From a virus: 20,197 nucleotides of DNA. The notes under the pieces were generated by a model, which did not search any database, was not told the origin of the DNA, and saw only the letters and a program-made list of their open reading frames with translations. Location: IMG/VR virus record IMGVR_UViG_3300034062_000080, positions 1-20,197 of that record, one strand, 5' to 3'. Shown piece by piece: positions 2,768-13,824 of this stretch (its first letter is position 1; each line of letters opens with the position of its first letter). The position numbers were made by a program, and so were the translations under genes.

Positions 2768-4594
2768 TTAAAATGCTATGCCAAATTCAGCAGCTAATTG
2801 ACGGTCAATGGTCTGTAAATCAGCAGGTTTCTTTAAGTCAAGTTTGTACTGCTCTGCGATTTCTTTACCACGCTTATTGATAATTGAAGGCATACTATCA
2901 AGCGGAGTGCTTTCCCAATTCAATCCTTTTTTAAGCGCATAATTCTTACGAGCAAGAGCATATTTAGTCTGCTTAACTGCGTTATTCAGTTTTGCCTCAA
3001 ACTCGGTAGGACTATCACCGCCAAATATGTCTGCGCCAGCATTAGGCAATGAAGCAATGATTCGATCTGCTTCCTGAACACCCATAGCAGCACCAGTCAG
3101 GTCTTTAATGGTCTGGTTAAGGTTTTGCAATGAGTTTTGCTTGTACTGAGAATATTCAGTTAATTGACGCTTTTCAGACTCTGGTAATCCACCAAATTTA
3201 TCTCTAAGCGTATTCCATGCTTGACCAGTCCTAAACTTAATGTTTTGATACTCAGGCTTGTAAGAAAACTGAATATTGTTCAGTCGAGTAATAGCAGCAG
3301 CATCAGCCAAAACGCCTTTTTCAACATCGCCAGCAGTAGTTTTGCTTATTGCACCTGTATACACATTGACAGATGGCGCACCTGATTTTTTAGCAGCCTG
3401 AAGCGCAGGATTCAACTGACCCAAAATATTTGAGTTTGAACCCAAGATTCTTTCAACTTCGCTAACAATTTGAGTGTTATCCATAGCACCTGCTCTAGCT
3501 ATAAGAGCATCTGCTTGATTCCTTAGCGTAGGATGAACACCAGCAAGTTGATTAGTTAAACCAGCAAGAAGTGTTTGTCTTTGATCTTCTTTAGAAATAC
3601 CAGTATTAGGCACTAGAGTAGGAATACCGTCTTTAATAGCCCACTTACCAAGTTTAGGATCAAGACCAATATCAACAGCTTCGTTTGGCTTCAACAAACG
3701 ATTACCGCTAACGTCAGCAATCAAGCCTCTTGTCGTAGAGAAAGCCTTGCCATCTCTAAAGAAAACCTGTTCTTTAGGATCAAGCCTATCTGCTTGACCT
3801 ATCAAAATGTCAGCAGCAGCTTTATCACCTTGCATTGCAGCAGTAACAGCTACCCCTCTTAAACGAGCAGCCTCAGCCTTATTTTCTGGACTAACACCAG
3901 CAAAAAACGGAACATTTCCAGCTACATTAAGAGTAGCAGCACTAGGCGTAGGTACTGGAGCAGGAGCAGGTGGCGCTTGAACAGGTGCTGGTTGAGCAGG
4001 TGGAGCAGTTCCAACGCTACCGTAACCGCCACCCAAAAATCCACCACCATCAGAAGCTATTAGACCAGCAACAGGTTCAGGTGCGGCTTCAACGACAGGA
4101 GCAGCAGCACTAGGAGCAACACTAGGCGCAGGACTAGGAGCAGGACTAGTAGCAGGACTAGTAGCAGTCGGAGTTAGACCGTACATCTTTGCTCGTTCAC
4201 GAATAGAAACCTGACGTACAAACTCATCCGGACTGACATCAGCAAGATAAGCCAAGTCTGGATTAGCCTTTCTCATCGCAGCCAAACCAGTTAGCTGACG
4301 CTGTGATTGAGCCAACTTCATTGCATTGCTGACCTGATTCAGACCTGATTCGTAAGTCTGACCAGCAGCCCCATAACCAGCAGCCAATGAAGTCAAAATA
4401 TTTTGCAATGGAGAACGACGATAGCCTTGTGGACTCATACCCTGAGACAAAGCACTAAGTGAACCTAGCAACCCACCAATATTTGCTCTGCTTTCTAAAG
4501 CAGAACTTTGCTCTGGACTCAAAAGCCCACGATAAACCTCTGGAGTCGTTCCAAAGACTTTAGGTAACTTAGAGAGAATATCTTCAATAGCCAT
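2768..4594 (-). CDS. Internal virion protein with Pro/Ala-rich linker
   Basis: A 608-aa protein of the putative ejection cluster. Residues 1-140 are helical, with a small Gly/Ala-rich part near 68-80. Residues about 141-226 form a long Pro/Ala/Ser/Gly-rich linker with repeated SPAPSPAPS-type units, interrupted by a glycine patch (DGGGFLGGGYG). Residues 227-608 are again largely alpha-helical and charged. A two-domain protein joined by a flexible linker suits a protein packed in the capsid and threaded out through the tail. No enzyme motif is recognised. The start is supported by AAGGTG four bases upstream of the ATG; the next gene follows after eight bases. Confidence 0.6.
   Translation of the reverse strand: MAIEDILSKLPKVFGTTPEVYRGLLSPEQSSALESRANIGGLLGSLSALSQGMSPQGYRRSPLQNILTSLAAGYGAAGQTYESGLNQVSNAMKLAQSQRQLTGLAAMRKANPDLAYLADVSPDEFVRQVSIRERAKMYGLTPTATSPATSPAPSPAPSVAPSAAAPVVEAAPEPVAGLIASDGGGFLGGGYGSVGTAPPAQPAPVQAPPAPAPVPTPSAATLNVAGNVPFFAGVSPENKAEAARLRGVAVTAAMQGDKAAADILIGQADRLDPKEQVFFRDGKAFSTTRGLIADVSGNRLLKPNEAVDIGLDPKLGKWAIKDGIPTLVPNTGISKEDQRQTLLAGLTNQLAGVHPTLRNQADALIARAGAMDNTQIVSEVERILGSNSNILGQLNPALQAAKKSGAPSVNVYTGAISKTTAGDVEKGVLADAAAITRLNNIQFSYKPEYQNIKFRTGQAWNTLRDKFGGLPESEKRQLTEYSQYKQNSLQNLNQTIKDLTGAAMGVQEADRIIASLPNAGADIFGGDSPTEFEAKLNNAVKQTKYALARKNYALKKGLNWESTPLDSMPSIINKRGKEIAEQYKLDLKKPADLQTIDRQLAAEFGIAF
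3917..4174 (-). repeat. Pro/Ala/Ser low-complexity coding tract
   Basis: This encodes residues about 141-226 of the 608-aa internal virion protein. On the + strand, short imperfect direct repeats built on gcaggactagtagcaggact occur at about 4120-4160. They encode (S)PAPSPA units, and a second Pro/Ala-rich block lies at about 3940-4010. The repeats are in frame and likely change length by slippage. Confidence 0.7.
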
Positions 4595-8523: not shown

Positions 8524-9773
8524 TATTGTCTCGTCCAGCTATTCGTTGATCCTGATACCTGAGTCCATGTATTGCTATTAGCCGCTACGACATCCCAGTT
8601 ATTTGATCCAGCAGTTACTTGAGTCCAAGTATTACTGTCAGGTGTCTGCTCAGTCCATGTATTAGCTTCTGGAATAACATCCGACCATTCCTCACCAATA
8701 ATGCCACCATTGGCAACTAACAGAGCTACAGCATTAACAGAGGCAATTCCAGCAAATGTCGCATTAGGAACGCATCCGACTATTGCCTCACAGTCAACAT
8801 GAGCAGTACCATCGTAAAGAACGCCACCAATCGCGGTAAATGTTGCTTCAGCATAGACACTCGCATCACCTAGCCGAACTCTAATGCCATTCGCTGTAAC
8901 TGTTGTAGTTGTGACAACAGCCGCATTGCCAAACTGCACCCTTCTACCATTCGCCGTAAATGTTGCATTGCCTGTAACTGCCGCATTGCCAGCAAAGACA
9001 CCAACACCATTCGCTGTAACTGTTGCAAGTCCATTAACTGATGCAACACCAGCAATGACTAAGCCACCATTAGCGGTAAACGTCGCTATTCCATTAACAG
9101 AACCAGCACCTAACTGAACTTTGATACCGTTAGCTGTGACCGTTCCTGTTGCATTAACCGCAGCAGCAGCGAATTGAATCCTGATGGCATTAGCCGTAAC
9201 CGTAGCCGTTCCATTAACAGCGGCATTACCTAACCGTACTAGAATCGCATTAGCTGAGAACGTACCCGTAGCACTTACCGCAGCAGTTCCTAGCGCAACT
9301 CGAATACCCGCTGCCGTAACCGTAGCTGATGTAACAAATACACCAGCACCGAATTGCACCCTGCTACCAGCAGCAGCAACCGTAGCATTGCCTGTTACCG
9401 CTGCATTGCCAAATTGGATACGAATTGCATTTGCTGATACCGTTGCGGTTCCATTAACAACAGCATTGCCAAGCCGTACCCTAATCGCATTAGCAGTAAC
9501 AGTAGCTGATCCACTAACAGCAGCCGATGCTAACTGGATTCTTATACCAGCCGCAGTAACTGTTGCTGTGCCGTTGACATTCGCAACACCAGTTTGAACC
9601 CTGATGCCAACCGCAGTAACCGTAGCCGTACTAGATATTGCTGCATTGCCTAATGCGACCCGAATACCATTAGCGGTAACTGTCGCTGTTCCGTCAATAC
9701 TCGCACTACCAAACTGCGTAGACCCCGCTAACGAGGAATAAGGAGTTTGAGCAAATGCGCTGATACCGAACAT
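8523..9773 (-). CDS. Repeat-built virion protein (17 x 20-aa repeats)
   Basis: A 416-aa protein. Residues 1-21 (MFGISAFAQTPYSSLAG) form an N-terminal segment found on other phage structural proteins. Residues 22-361 are seventeen consecutive 20-residue units with consensus GNAAVNGTATVTANGIRVQL and no insertions or deletions. Alternating small, polar and beta-branched residues suggest a beta-solenoid or extended beta fibre. Residues 369-416 are five 10-residue units carrying a Trp each (NTWTQ, NNWDV, NSWTR). The ATG follows directly on the stop of the upstream gene (TAAATG), and the stop overlaps the nozzle start. It is probably a fibre or sheath-like appendage near the neck or tail. No enzymatic motif is present; exact role unknown. 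Confidence 0.75.
   Translation of the reverse strand: MFGISAFAQTPYSSLAGSTQFGSASIDGTATVTANGIRVALGNAAISSTATVTAVGIRVQTGVANVNGTATVTAAGIRIQLASAAVSGSATVTANAIRVRLGNAVVNGTATVSANAIRIQFGNAAVTGNATVAAAGSRVQFGAGVFVTSATVTAAGIRVALGTAAVSATGTFSANAILVRLGNAAVNGTATVTANAIRIQFAAAAVNATGTVTANGIKVQLGAGSVNGIATFTANGGLVIAGVASVNGLATVTANGVGVFAGNAAVTGNATFTANGRRVQFGNAAVVTTTTVTANGIRVRLGDASVYAEATFTAIGGVLYDGTAHVDCEAIVGCVPNATFAGIASVNAVALLVANGGIIGEEWSDVIPEANTWTEQTPDSNTWTQVTAGSNNWDVVAANSNTWTQVSGSTNSWTRQ
8526..8669 (-). repeat. 30-bp Trp-motif coding repeats
   Basis: Five approximate 30-base units at the 3' end of the same gene encode ANTWTEQTPD, SNTWTQVTAG, SNNWDVVAAN, SNTWTQVSGS and TNSWTRQ. One tryptophan recurs every ten residues, which suggests a regular beta structure or binding tail. 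Confidence 0.8.
8691..9710 (-). repeat. 60-bp coding tandem repeat array (17 units)
   Basis: Seventeen 60-base units, in frame, encode the 20-residue repeats of the 416-aa protein. Units near the middle are most alike (GNAAVNGTATVTANAIRIQF type), while the last three (nearest 8691) are degenerate, including the only two cysteines of the repeat array in unit 16. Diverged codons between units show that the array is old, while the exact unit length shows structural constraint. Confidence 0.9.
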
Positions 9774-11296: not shown

Positions 11297-11950
11297 TTAT
11301 TCCTCTAATTGCTCAAAATCTTTCCATCCGTACTCATAGGTTCCTATGTGTCGAATGTGCATGGACAGTTCATGGTCAACGTAGGTTGGGAATCCTTCTG
11401 ATGCAGCCTTGACGCAGAAATAAACATCCTCGCCACAGACTCCATTCTTACCCCATCCAGCATCAAACCAAGGTCTGCCAGTCTTTTCAAATACCTCTTT
11501 GCGGATTAATACAGCACCAAAGCCAATCGCTGTAACTTCCTCAATACCCTCTTTACCACGACTATCGATGTTCTCCCATTTATGGACTAACGTCTCACCG
11601 TCCATATACTTCGTCATCATCTTAGCCGTAGGTGTTACAGGCTTCCTTCTCGTAGTCGCATTAACGCCAACTATAGGCACTTCACGACTCAGCAGAATAG
11701 TAATGATGTCAGGAGGAAACCGCATATCGCTGTCCACAAAGAACAACGCATCACAGCCCTCTTTCAACGCTACCTCTGCCAACTTCTCACGCTGGTCAAA
11801 TATCAGCGTTCCCGGCATCGTATAAAGGCTTAAACCACCCTTACCATCCTTGCATCGGACAGACGCATCATGTGCAGCCATCTTCGCAAAGTCAAACGCA
11901 AATGCCGTGTGAACCTCATCCCTTGCAGGAACGCAAACACCAACTCTCAT
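11297..11950 (-). CDS. GT-A type glycosyltransferase in the structural operon
   Basis: A 217-aa protein with a nucleotide-sugar transferase fold. An N-terminal Rossmann-like strand (RVGVCVPARDEV) is followed by a metal-binding DxD motif, FFVDSDM (D73, D75), a strand PIVGVNAT, an acceptor-region segment GFGAVLIRKEVFEKTG, and GVCGEDVYFCVKA (E174/D175), which resembles the catalytic ED of family-2 enzymes. H198 and H201 in HIRHIG could help bind the metal. The ATG overlaps the preceding stop (ATGA) and it is followed by the adaptor gene, so it is co-expressed with virion parts. It may glycosylate a virion or host surface molecule; the acceptor is unknown. Confidence 0.78.
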   Translation of the reverse strand: MRVGVCVPARDEVHTAFAFDFAKMAAHDASVRCKDGKGGLSLYTMPGTLIFDQREKLAEVALKEGCDALFFVDSDMRFPPDIITILLSREVPIVGVNATTRRKPVTPTAKMMTKYMDGETLVHKWENIDSRGKEGIEEVTAIGFGAVLIRKEVFEKTGRPWFDAGWGKNGVCGEDVYFCVKAASEGFPTYVDHELSMHIRHIGTYEYGWKDFEQLEE

Positions 11951-12249
11951 ACTGTACCTCGATACGTTTTCCAGACAGCATTATCAGGATCATTCAGCCA
12001 CTTGGCAAATCCAACGTCATCAATCACCCTGAAGCCCTTCATAATCCCCATCTGGTTAAGTACATCAATAACCGTGAAAGGTATTCTGGCTACATGGTGC
12101 AGATCGTTTAGATGCCCTTTGCGCTCTTTATCGAAATCTAACTGAGCCTTGTTAGCCTCAATGATCTCGGTAACATCCTGCTTCGTCTCGATGACAATCC
12201 CACCGTCACCGTCCTCATATACTGTTTGAGTCCGTATCTGGTTACTCAT
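11947..12249 (-). CDS. Conserved small phage protein between capsid and adaptor genes
   Basis: A 100-aa protein. I place the start at ATG 12249-12247 (MSNQIRTQTVYEDGDGG), which overlaps the endonuclease stop as ATGA. A longer frame to 12294 would overlap by 49 bases. No good Shine-Dalgarno is visible near this ATG, so coupling with the endonuclease gene is likely. Features: an acidic TKQDVTEIIEANKAQLDFD helix, HLNDLHHVARIPFTVIDVLN, and a C-terminal KWLNDPDNAVWKTYRGTV. The last phrase resembles a motif (LNDPDNR.FRT..G.V) that recurs in proteins beside capsid genes in podoviruses. Its function is unknown; by context it is a virion morphogenesis factor. Confidence 0.7.
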   Translation of the reverse strand: MSNQIRTQTVYEDGDGGIVIETKQDVTEIIEANKAQLDFDKERKGHLNDLHHVARIPFTVIDVLNQMGIMKGFRVIDDVGFAKWLNDPDNAVWKTYRGTV

Positions 12250-12833
12250 GTAATGTGTGTCCAAGTGCGCCCTATTCTCACTCCCCGAACGCAATTTGGG
12301 GATACGCCAAGTTCTCTAGCTATTCCAGCATGACTTAGCGTACTTGAACGGATCAGCCTAACCTTTTCCTCGTTAAGCAATGATTTCCCGTTCCCTTCGC
12401 CTTTAGGAGAAACAACCCGCTTTCTCCCTTTTGCAATCATATCCTGCGTATTTTCCTTTGGCGTACCAATGCTCAAGTGGTGAGGATTGACACAGCTAGG
12501 ATTATCGCATTTGTGCATCACAAACATACCATCAGGTATATCTGTTTTGTTAAATAACTTCCAACTTACCCTATGCGCTCCATCAGACCCTAAAGACTTT
12601 GCGCCTAAGCTAATCCTTCCGTATCCGTTGGATAAACGCTGACCAAGCCATTCCCAACATTCAGATTCCTCTTTCTTATCAACAAAACGCCAGAATCTTT
12701 CTTCCAAACTTCCATGAGCATATTTCTTTTGCTCAACAACGCCATGAGTCTTAAATCTAACGTAATGCTTGTAGCAAAGACCTAAACTCTTAACCCTTAC
12801 TGGAACATCGCAACCATCAACTGAACATTTCAT
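12246..12833 (-). CDS. Free-standing HNH homing endonuclease
   Basis: A 195-aa protein from the ATG at 12833 (MKCSVDGCDV). The ATG at 12845, four codons earlier, contains the GGGAGG Shine-Dalgarno of this one and is not the likely start. An N-terminal zinc module has C3, C8, C20 and H23. The HNH_3-type core is CWEWLG at 59-64, AHRVSW at 86-91, then MHKCDNPSCVNPHHL with H107, N116 and H119 as catalytic candidates. A C-terminal helix-turn-helix (IARELGVSPNCVRGV, 171-185) would bind DNA. Such genes are selfish elements inserted between phage genes. No intron or split gene is visible here: the capsid gene is complete upstream. The stop overlaps the next start (ATGA). Confidence 0.88.
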   Translation of the reverse strand: MKCSVDGCDVPVRVKSLGLCYKHYVRFKTHGVVEQKKYAHGSLEERFWRFVDKKEESECWEWLGQRLSNGYGRISLGAKSLGSDGAHRVSWKLFNKTDIPDGMFVMHKCDNPSCVNPHHLSIGTPKENTQDMIAKGRKRVVSPKGEGNGKSLLNEEKVRLIRSSTLSHAGIARELGVSPNCVRGVRIGRTWTHIT

Positions 12834-12834
12834 A

Positions 12835-12864
12835 AATCCTCCCATGGATAACCACAGGAGGATT
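12835..12864 (-). promoter_or_regulatory. RBS-sequestering hairpin upstream of the HNH gene
   Basis: In the minus-strand transcript, AAUCCUCC pairs with GGAGGAUU, extended inward by two G-U wobbles and UGG/CCA, to give a 13-bp stem with a UUAU loop. The 3' arm contains the whole GGGAGG Shine-Dalgarno and ends one base before the ATG at 12833. No run of U follows the stem, so it is not a typical rho-independent terminator. A TATAAT box lies at 12862-12867. If it works, transcripts starting about seven bases downstream would lack most of the 5' arm and leave the binding site free. Confidence 0.7.
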
Positions 12865-12867
12865 ATA
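12862..12867 (-). promoter_or_regulatory. Candidate -10 box (TATAAT) at the hairpin
   Basis: TATAAT on the minus strand overlaps the first bases of the hairpin and follows TTTGATA. No convincing -35 box is seen at 16-18 bases upstream (TGGCTC at best). The candidate depends on its position relative to the hairpin, and on the similar GATATAAT before the scaffold gene. Confidence 0.25.
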
Positions 12868-12879
12868 TATCAAACTCCG

Positions 12880-13824
12880 TTATAGAGCCATGTCCAGATC
12901 GAATATTCCGCCATGAGCTGCTTCGTTCTTAACTTCCAGAGTGACTTCAGCCAGCAACTGAGTATTCTCAGAGTCACCAGTCTTAGCCAGATCGTTAGTC
13001 TGGAACGGACGCAGATACGCCAATGCTGCGTATTCTGGATCGAGTACCAGAGCATCACGGGTACGCATGAAGCGGTTAGGAACAACCGACATCGTGCCAA
13101 AGTCAGACATATAAACGTCAGCAGCACCGATAATGGTGGTCGGAGTGTTACCCGGAGCCATGTAACGCTGTGCAGCGATACCAGCAAACGAGCTAACCTT
13201 CTGCTTACCAGCAGCGCCAACCATCAGAATCTTAGGTGAGCCACCCGATGTAAACACCTCTGCAACAACAGTCTTCAGCAGAGCTTCGGTGAAAGTACGC
13301 TGAGTACCGTCAGTACGAGTCGATACACCGATGGTCGCTGGATCAGCACCGTCAGAGGCTTTGTCAGAGTTAGTCTTGATCCATGACAGCAGCGAACCGA
13401 GCTTACGAGCAATAGTCGATGTACCAGCCGAACGACCTTGGTTAGCGCACAGGATAGTCTCCAGATCACGCTTGATCTCAGCCGATGCTTTAGCCAGTTG
13501 ATAAGCCTTTTCAGACTTACGACCTGCCTTGTTTACTGTGTCCAGAGTACCCGAAACCTGAACGGTCTTTTGGATAATCTGAGTGTAGTTGCCAAGACGA
13601 ACGGTAGGAGCCAGAGTAGCCGAAGTAGCGTCTGCACCTTCAATCGCTGCGTTAGCAGTAGTAGCAGCAGCTAGGCTGTCAGTCTGCCACTCGTGATAAA
13701 CGGCAGTTGCTTTAGTCTTACCAACCGAACTCATGAAAGGAGTCTCAGTAGGCGAGATGTCATAGATGATGTCGGTCAAATCTTCGCGCTGACCAATCGC
13801 GGTATGTGCTGTAAATGTAGGCAT
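12880..13824 (-). CDS. Major capsid protein, SU10/DUF5309 type
   Basis: A 314-aa protein with the opening TFTAHTAIGQREDLTDIIYDISPTETPFMSSVG, the diagnostic start of this HK97-fold capsid family, followed by TYHEWQTDSL-like VYHEWQTDSL, APTVRLGNYTQIIQKTVQVSGT, KAYQLAKASAEIKRDLETIL (spine helix) and the C-terminal TLEVKNEAAHGGIFDL. It should form the icosahedral or prolate shell around the scaffold. It lies directly after the scaffold gene (eight bases apart), with AGGA upstream of the ATG. Codon use is more uniform and looks optimised relative to neighbours, consistent with high expression. The gene appears complete, and the inserted endonuclease sits after its stop. Confidence 0.88.
   Translation of the reverse strand: MPTFTAHTAIGQREDLTDIIYDISPTETPFMSSVGKTKATAVYHEWQTDSLAAATTANAAIEGADATSATLAPTVRLGNYTQIIQKTVQVSGTLDTVNKAGRKSEKAYQLAKASAEIKRDLETILCANQGRSAGTSTIARKLGSLLSWIKTNSDKASDGADPATIGVSTRTDGTQRTFTEALLKTVVAEVFTSGGSPKILMVGAAGKQKVSSFAGIAAQRYMAPGNTPTTIIGAADVYMSDFGTMSVVPNRFMRTRDALVLDPEYAALAYLRPFQTNDLAKTGDSENTQLLAEVTLEVKNEAAHGGIFDLDMAL

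Follow-up and report, generated by a model that had tools for sequence, protein, structure and literature searches.

Gene context of the leader

The present study concerns the leader of a freestanding HNH endonuclease gene found directly behind the capsid gene of a podophage, in a viral record of 20,197 bases (IMG/VR record IMGVR_UViG_3300034062_000080, hereafter the window), where all the features described below lie on the minus strand (Table 1). In this leader, an RNA hairpin covers the Shine-Dalgarno site of the endonuclease gene and a candidate -10 box overlaps the base of its 5' arm. The phage is SU10-like according to its capsid and portal genes (Pfam, SU10) and to its scaffolding and terminase genes (PHROGs), in agreement with the preliminary description of this DNA, which had recognised a P22/SU10-like podovirus with an HNH gene beside the capsid gene. 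The capsid gene is located upstream of the HNH gene on the same strand, and a message reading through from it would carry the entire hairpin. The HNH domain was assigned with 39.9 bits for PF13392, against a cut-off of 24.8 bits. A second in-frame ATG is present at 12843-12845 within the 3' arm (CCATGGGAGG), four codons 5' of the likely start, and an Rfam search of the window matched no family.

Table 1. Features of the capsid-HNH region, in order of transcription (window coordinates)
Feature	Position	Strand	Basis
Major capsid protein gene, SU10 type	12880..13824	-	PF17236 SU10_MCP, E 2.6e-102; phrog_1328 major head protein
Candidate -10 box TATAAT, overlapping the 5' arm at its base	12862..12867	-	6/6 match; best -35 3/6 (L081)
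Hairpin 5' arm AATCCTCCTGTGG, including the anti-Shine-Dalgarno CCTCC	12852..12864	-	Fold; covariation in relatives
Predicted transcription start, G	12855	-	Inferred from -10 spacing, six bases past TATAAT
Hairpin loop TTAT	12848..12851	-	Fold
Hairpin 3' arm CCATGGGAGGATT	12835..12847	-	Fold
HNH gene Shine-Dalgarno site GGGAGG, entirely within the 3' arm	12838..12843	-	Probability of being unpaired (P) 0.001 in the long RNA (identical leader L081)
ATG start of the HNH gene	12833-12831	-	Sequence
Freestanding HNH_3 endonuclease gene, 195 amino acids, MKCSVDGC...	12246..12833	-	PF13392, E 3.2e-10; phrog_3593 HNH endonuclease, E 4.9e-33
ATGA overlap of the HNH stop and the next gene's start codon	12246..12249	-	Comparison with relatives
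Next virion-module gene, phrog_3982	11947..12249	-	PHROGs; directly after the capsid gene and hairpin in HNH-free relatives

A hairpin over the Shine-Dalgarno site

The stem running from 12864 to 12835 comprises 13 pairs, two of them G-U, closed by a loop of 4 bases; sequence and folding agree on this structure, and the coordinates and arithmetic of the preliminary description were correct. Its 3' arm hides the whole of the GGGAGG, as had been proposed, and in the computed fold the extended base of the stem also pairs the AUG of the HNH gene. Site accessibility and promoter scores of the window leader were read from the relative L081, whose leader is identical. The RNA from 12870 to 12820 folds at -20.4 kcal/mol, compared with -9.7 +/- 2.4 kcal/mol for shuffled sequences (z -4.4, one of 200 as good), and the larger fold from 12890 to 12800, previously suggested as a check, reaches -28.8 kcal/mol (z -2.8).

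The TATAAT had been described as overlapping the 5' arm, with a presumed transcription start near 12855, and these positions hold. The six bases that follow it are CCTCCT, the anti-Shine-Dalgarno strand, and are succeeded by G12855, the expected +1, so that an RNA begun there would be devoid of this strand. Such a shortened RNA (12855-12820) folds at only -5.1 kcal/mol, not better than its shuffles.

Survey of relatives

A search of viral contigs with the HNH protein provided 78 loci, of which 68 were analysed, and in each of these 68 the HNH gene lies 48-67 nucleotides past the end of a capsid gene. Their leaders are of several types, with differing stems and flanks, yet in every one a strong hairpin holds the Shine-Dalgarno site in its 3' arm. 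A uniform computation was applied to 38 distinct HNH leaders and to 287 other genes of the capsid contigs and of the window, these controls being scanned with the same -10 search window; as the relatives are not independent, the resulting counts are descriptive. The Shine-Dalgarno site is buried (P below 0.01) in 35 of the 38 HNH leaders, compared with 4 of the 287 control genes, and a -10 box with at least 5/6 matches occurs at a position removing the anti-Shine-Dalgarno strand in 30/38 and 30/287, respectively. Both properties are combined in 27 HNH leaders and in none of the controls.

Comparison of relatives with and without the HNH gene, also proposed beforehand, showed that the site-covering hairpin accompanies the HNH gene, while HNH-free leaders are mostly free: there, the site of the next gene is clear of the post-capsid hairpin (median P 0.58; 2/34 buried) and no suitable -10 box was found in the 34 post-capsid leaders. 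Every one of the 44 distinct HNH-free relatives (L001-L080 set) nevertheless has a GC-rich hairpin behind its capsid gene. Since only 12 of these hairpins have a T run, many of them may be mRNA-stabilising structures or partial terminators.

Insertion as a mobile cassette

Flanks are 89-98% identical in three junction pairs (L095/L059, L098/L057 and L101/L056), and the inserts of L095, L098 and L101 are bordered by the capsid stop, at it or within a few bases, and by the HNH stop. L081, identical to the window in this region, shares 99% identity on both sides with L003, from which the HNH gene is absent. The existence of such near-identical empty-site relatives supports the intergenic insertion of a freestanding HNH gene. 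In L095, L098 and L101 a resident terminator hairpin with TTTTTT (CCCTCGGGGCTTCGGCCTCGGGGGTTTTTT and similar) survives downstream of the HNH gene, so that the hairpin over the HNH site must be a different one. Judging from these junctions, the hairpin, the -10 box and the HNH gene move as one cassette.

In these three relatives the cassette sits between the capsid stop and the terminator hairpin of the capsid gene, which places the HNH coding region inside the capsid message. At most other loci, including those of the window type, the resident hairpin is gone, as is the Shine-Dalgarno site that the next gene has in HNH-free relatives, and the stop codon of the HNH gene overlaps the following start codon in an ATGA; the next virion-module gene may there need either the HNH gene to be translated or a message of its own.

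The junctions also bear on the possibility that the hairpin is a terminator or a 3' stabilising structure of the capsid message, covering the HNH site merely through the short spacing. The stem of at least 6 base pairs present after the capsid gene in 44/44 distinct HNH-free relatives examined would fit this role, as would the five or six T past the stem in the L117 group. However, the hairpins of HNH-free relatives mostly leave the next site uncovered and have no -10 box, the window hairpin lacks a T run (4 T among the 8 bases beyond its last GC pair, in L081) and had no terminator scored on it, and in L095, L098 and L101 the site-covering hairpin is a second one, separate from the resident TTTTTT hairpin kept downstream. 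This explanation appears unlikely. An intrinsic terminator as the main role was rejected, the stem being followed by TATGAAATG and the terminator scan listing no site here.

Other interruptions of related capsid genes were encountered. In the HNH-free relative L043, the capsid gene is interrupted in its 5' portion by a group I intron at 4045-4341 (RF00028, 73.7 bits, E 1.9e-18). Mobile elements of more than one sort thus target the capsid gene, and the homing of such an intron might be aided by a freestanding HNH enzyme. In OQ984150.1 (Phage C72C1), the capsid match at 8542-9731 is split in two and two capsid annotations are present, which suggests another interruption of an SU10-type capsid gene.

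Covariation of the stem

Two alignments of leaders were made from sequence. Among nine window-type leaders, aligned without gaps, 91.5% of the cells are paired, whereas slid partners give at most 60%, and none of 500 shuffles reaches the covariation score; among eleven leaders of a second type, 99.2% are paired against at most 66%, again with a score above all 500 shuffles. Compensatory double changes are seen from L081 to L085 (GC to AT), from L117 to L118 (AU to GC and CG to UA) and, twice, between L096 and L101. Most pair positions of the 30 hairpins compared display four to six standard pair types, although the hairpins were picked by minimum energy and their pairing is thus partly by construction. 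In tree comparisons covering pair positions 1-4 and 9-12, a purine/pyrimidine swap on the 5' arm nearly always had its counterpart on the 3' arm; this recurred in independent comparisons, most clearly at positions 1-4. A lack of compensatory changes had been named beforehand as evidence against the proposed role; instead, such changes preserve pairing in related leaders, over about 30 distinct hairpins.

This pattern also informs on a different role of the inverted repeat, as a DNA operator through which the HNH protein would repress its own promoter. A precedent exists in I-TevI, which represses its own promoter (PMC2988022). Conservation of sequence rather than of pairing would be expected from an operator, whereas the repeat varies freely between close relatives with the pairing kept, including G-U pairs that break the DNA symmetry, and every version includes the Shine-Dalgarno site. 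We regard the operator as a very improbable sole explanation of the repeat, and the operator and hairpin roles could coexist.

Candidate promoter elements

Different relatives display different promoter-like elements. The leaders of L109, L111, L112, L114 and L116 contain TTGACA, 17 bases and TAGGAT, that of L125 contains TTGACC, 17 bases and TAAGAT with a TG before the -10 box, and those of the L117 group have an extended -10 element, TGATATAAT or TGATACAAT. This association of weak -10 boxes with strong -35 boxes is what we would expect of working sigma-70 promoters. The L109, L111, L112, L114 and L116 genes nest near the window-type group in the protein tree, yet have a different hairpin and the TTGACA-type promoter; on this comparison their leader is a replaced or rebuilt one, with the architecture kept.

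In 15 related records, the exact consensus TTGACA-15/19-TATAAT does not occur. A search of 15 related records for a single-subunit RNA polymerase gave no match, though it had no working positive control, and a late-sigma or phage RNA polymerase promoter was set aside since no evidence for it was found, with the same limit on the polymerase search. The long HNH-carrying records G001 and G003 encode NinB, RusA, Erf-like and repressor-like genes, without any polymerase-size gene in their open reading frame lists, a gene content in line with transcription by the host polymerase, though not proof of it. Host assignment through bacterial genomes was uninformative, giving a single match of 53 residues, to a Bacteroidota bin.

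A proposed regulatory switch

We propose that the leader is, quite probably, a mobile regulatory switch of a freestanding HNH homing-type endonuclease gene, off through its hairpin on read-through messages and on through an internal promoter. On RNA reading through from the capsid gene, the hairpin would hide the Shine-Dalgarno site and the start codon, leaving the endonuclease untranslated. A promoter whose -10 box stands just before the anti-Shine-Dalgarno strand would start RNA inside the 5' arm, and this short RNA, unable to form the hairpin, would be translated. The likely benefit would be to avoid making a DNA-cutting enzyme at capsid level while supplying a small dose of it from its own promoter. 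The position of the -10 box is read directly from the leaders; its function as a promoter, the difference in translation between the two RNAs and the timing of expression are what we infer from it.

Several observations weigh against such a switch. In the window, the TATAAT has no good -35 box (at most 3/6 at 16-18 base pairs, in L081), as the preliminary description had already pointed out, and no correctly spaced TG precedes it; for these two reasons the strength of the window promoter is doubtful. A -10 box was not recognised in the L147 leader. The shortened leaders often retain some pairing, partly with the coding sequence (P unpaired 0.14-0.74), and related HNH genes in other gene contexts (e.g. 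L161, L186, L189) have free sites. A simple promoter scan of the window does not list the TATAAT.

Alternatively, the hairpin could only lower translation on a single capsid-HNH message, without internal promoter, and the TATAAT would represent nothing but the base of the stem, to which its AAT indeed belongs; the missing -35 box of the window agrees with this. The -10 box is, however, kept over subfamilies with different stems and flanks, and where it is weak (TAGGAT in the L109 group, TAAGAT in L125) a -35 box with 5-6/6 matches stands at 17 base pairs, while the L117 group has a TG at the extended -10 place. Boxes with at least 5/6 matches at the releasing position are also about seven times rarer at control genes. 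A hairpin acting without promoter is consequently considered improbable, and the switch with an internal promoter is retained.

The I-TevI-like logic put forward in the preliminary description is supported by the comparison as regards the hairpin, its pairing and the placement of the -10 box. The late-only expression known for I-TevI does not necessarily apply, because the candidate promoters resemble those of host sigma-70 and lie downstream of the capsid gene. Given that the upstream gene encodes the capsid, and is presumably late and strongly expressed, while the candidate internal promoter is of the host sigma-70 type, the logic might even be reversed with respect to T4: the HNH protein would be made from its own promoter at any time, including early, and shut off on the capsid message, which would be abundant and late. 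We put this forward tentatively, with somewhat less than even confidence. If true, the leader would insulate a selfish gene from the expression of its neighbour, as part of the mobile cassette, and the HNH gene could invade the capsid operon harmlessly.

Distribution within the HNH family

The idea of a design universal to the HNH family was rejected, the sites of L161, L162, L186-L190, L192 and L193 being free or mostly free; several genes of this set have a start codon that overlaps the upstream gene. The HNH genes of L160 and L164, 41-45% identical to that of the window or of L160, follow P22-type coat genes (assigned in L164 from the open reading frame and its place alone) and have their site in a hairpin, with a TATAAT in the 5' arm of the L160 leader. 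Because relatives in other contexts mostly have free sites, the design is, as far as these sequences indicate, limited to the capsid-linked lineage and does not belong to the whole HNH protein family.

In the cultured Sulfitobacter phage phiGT1 (L161), a pair of HNH genes lies close to a capsid gene of the SU10 type; the first HNH gene has a hairpin upstream yet a free Shine-Dalgarno site and provides a natural contrast. In another HNH group (L171-L173), a leader hairpin holds AGGAGT in its 3' arm and is preceded by a possible -10 box.

Comparison with known systems

Hairpins covering the ribosome binding site, associated with a promoter, have been described for I-TevI, I-TevII, I-TevIII, segB and Aeh1 mobE in a review of T4 mobile elements (PMC2988022). 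In the long upstream transcripts of the I-TevI-type T4 genes, the Shine-Dalgarno site of the endonuclease is covered by a hairpin (PMC2988022, PMC3014915), and a promoter at the hairpin gives an RNA too short for this folding; both steps are predicted here as well. These T4 genes reside in group I introns and are served by middle or late T4 promoters, whereas the window gene is freestanding after a capsid gene, belongs to a podophage and has candidate host-type promoter elements. The mobE gene of Aeromonas phage Aeh1, as presented in the review from Gibb and Edgell 2007 and 2009, resembles the window gene in being a freestanding HNH gene with its site in a hairpin and its own promoter nearby (predicted in the window); it differs in its T4-like phage, in its insertion in a ribonucleotide reductase gene and in the RNase E-like processing described for it (PMC2988022). 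According to the same source, T4 segB is likewise a freestanding homing endonuclease gene with an equal arrangement of site-covering hairpin and promoter, but encodes a GIY-YIG enzyme and lies in a tRNA gene region (PMC2988022). Intrinsic terminators after phage capsid genes share with the window a GC-rich hairpin straight after the capsid gene; the window hairpin differs from them by its missing T run, by its coverage of the next Shine-Dalgarno site and by the resident terminator kept downstream in three relatives.

The natural variants at hand, of the TTGACA, extended -10 and TATAAT-only types, offer material for studying this arrangement, and genes of this kind could be recognised by a simple rule, a -10 box with the anti-Shine-Dalgarno strand as the six bases that follow it. 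The interpretation of the leader as a probable switch of the known I-TevI, segB and mobE design appears well supported by these comparisons, the differences being the phage lineage, the capsid-gene site and the host-type candidate promoter elements. The combination of hairpin and internal promoter has been documented so far in a few T4-like phage endonuclease genes. Its predicted presence in about 40 distinct, covarying leaders of an unrelated podophage lineage, with the switch inside the mobile unit, suggests that it could be a general and repeatedly used means by which homing endonucleases establish themselves in strongly expressed operons.
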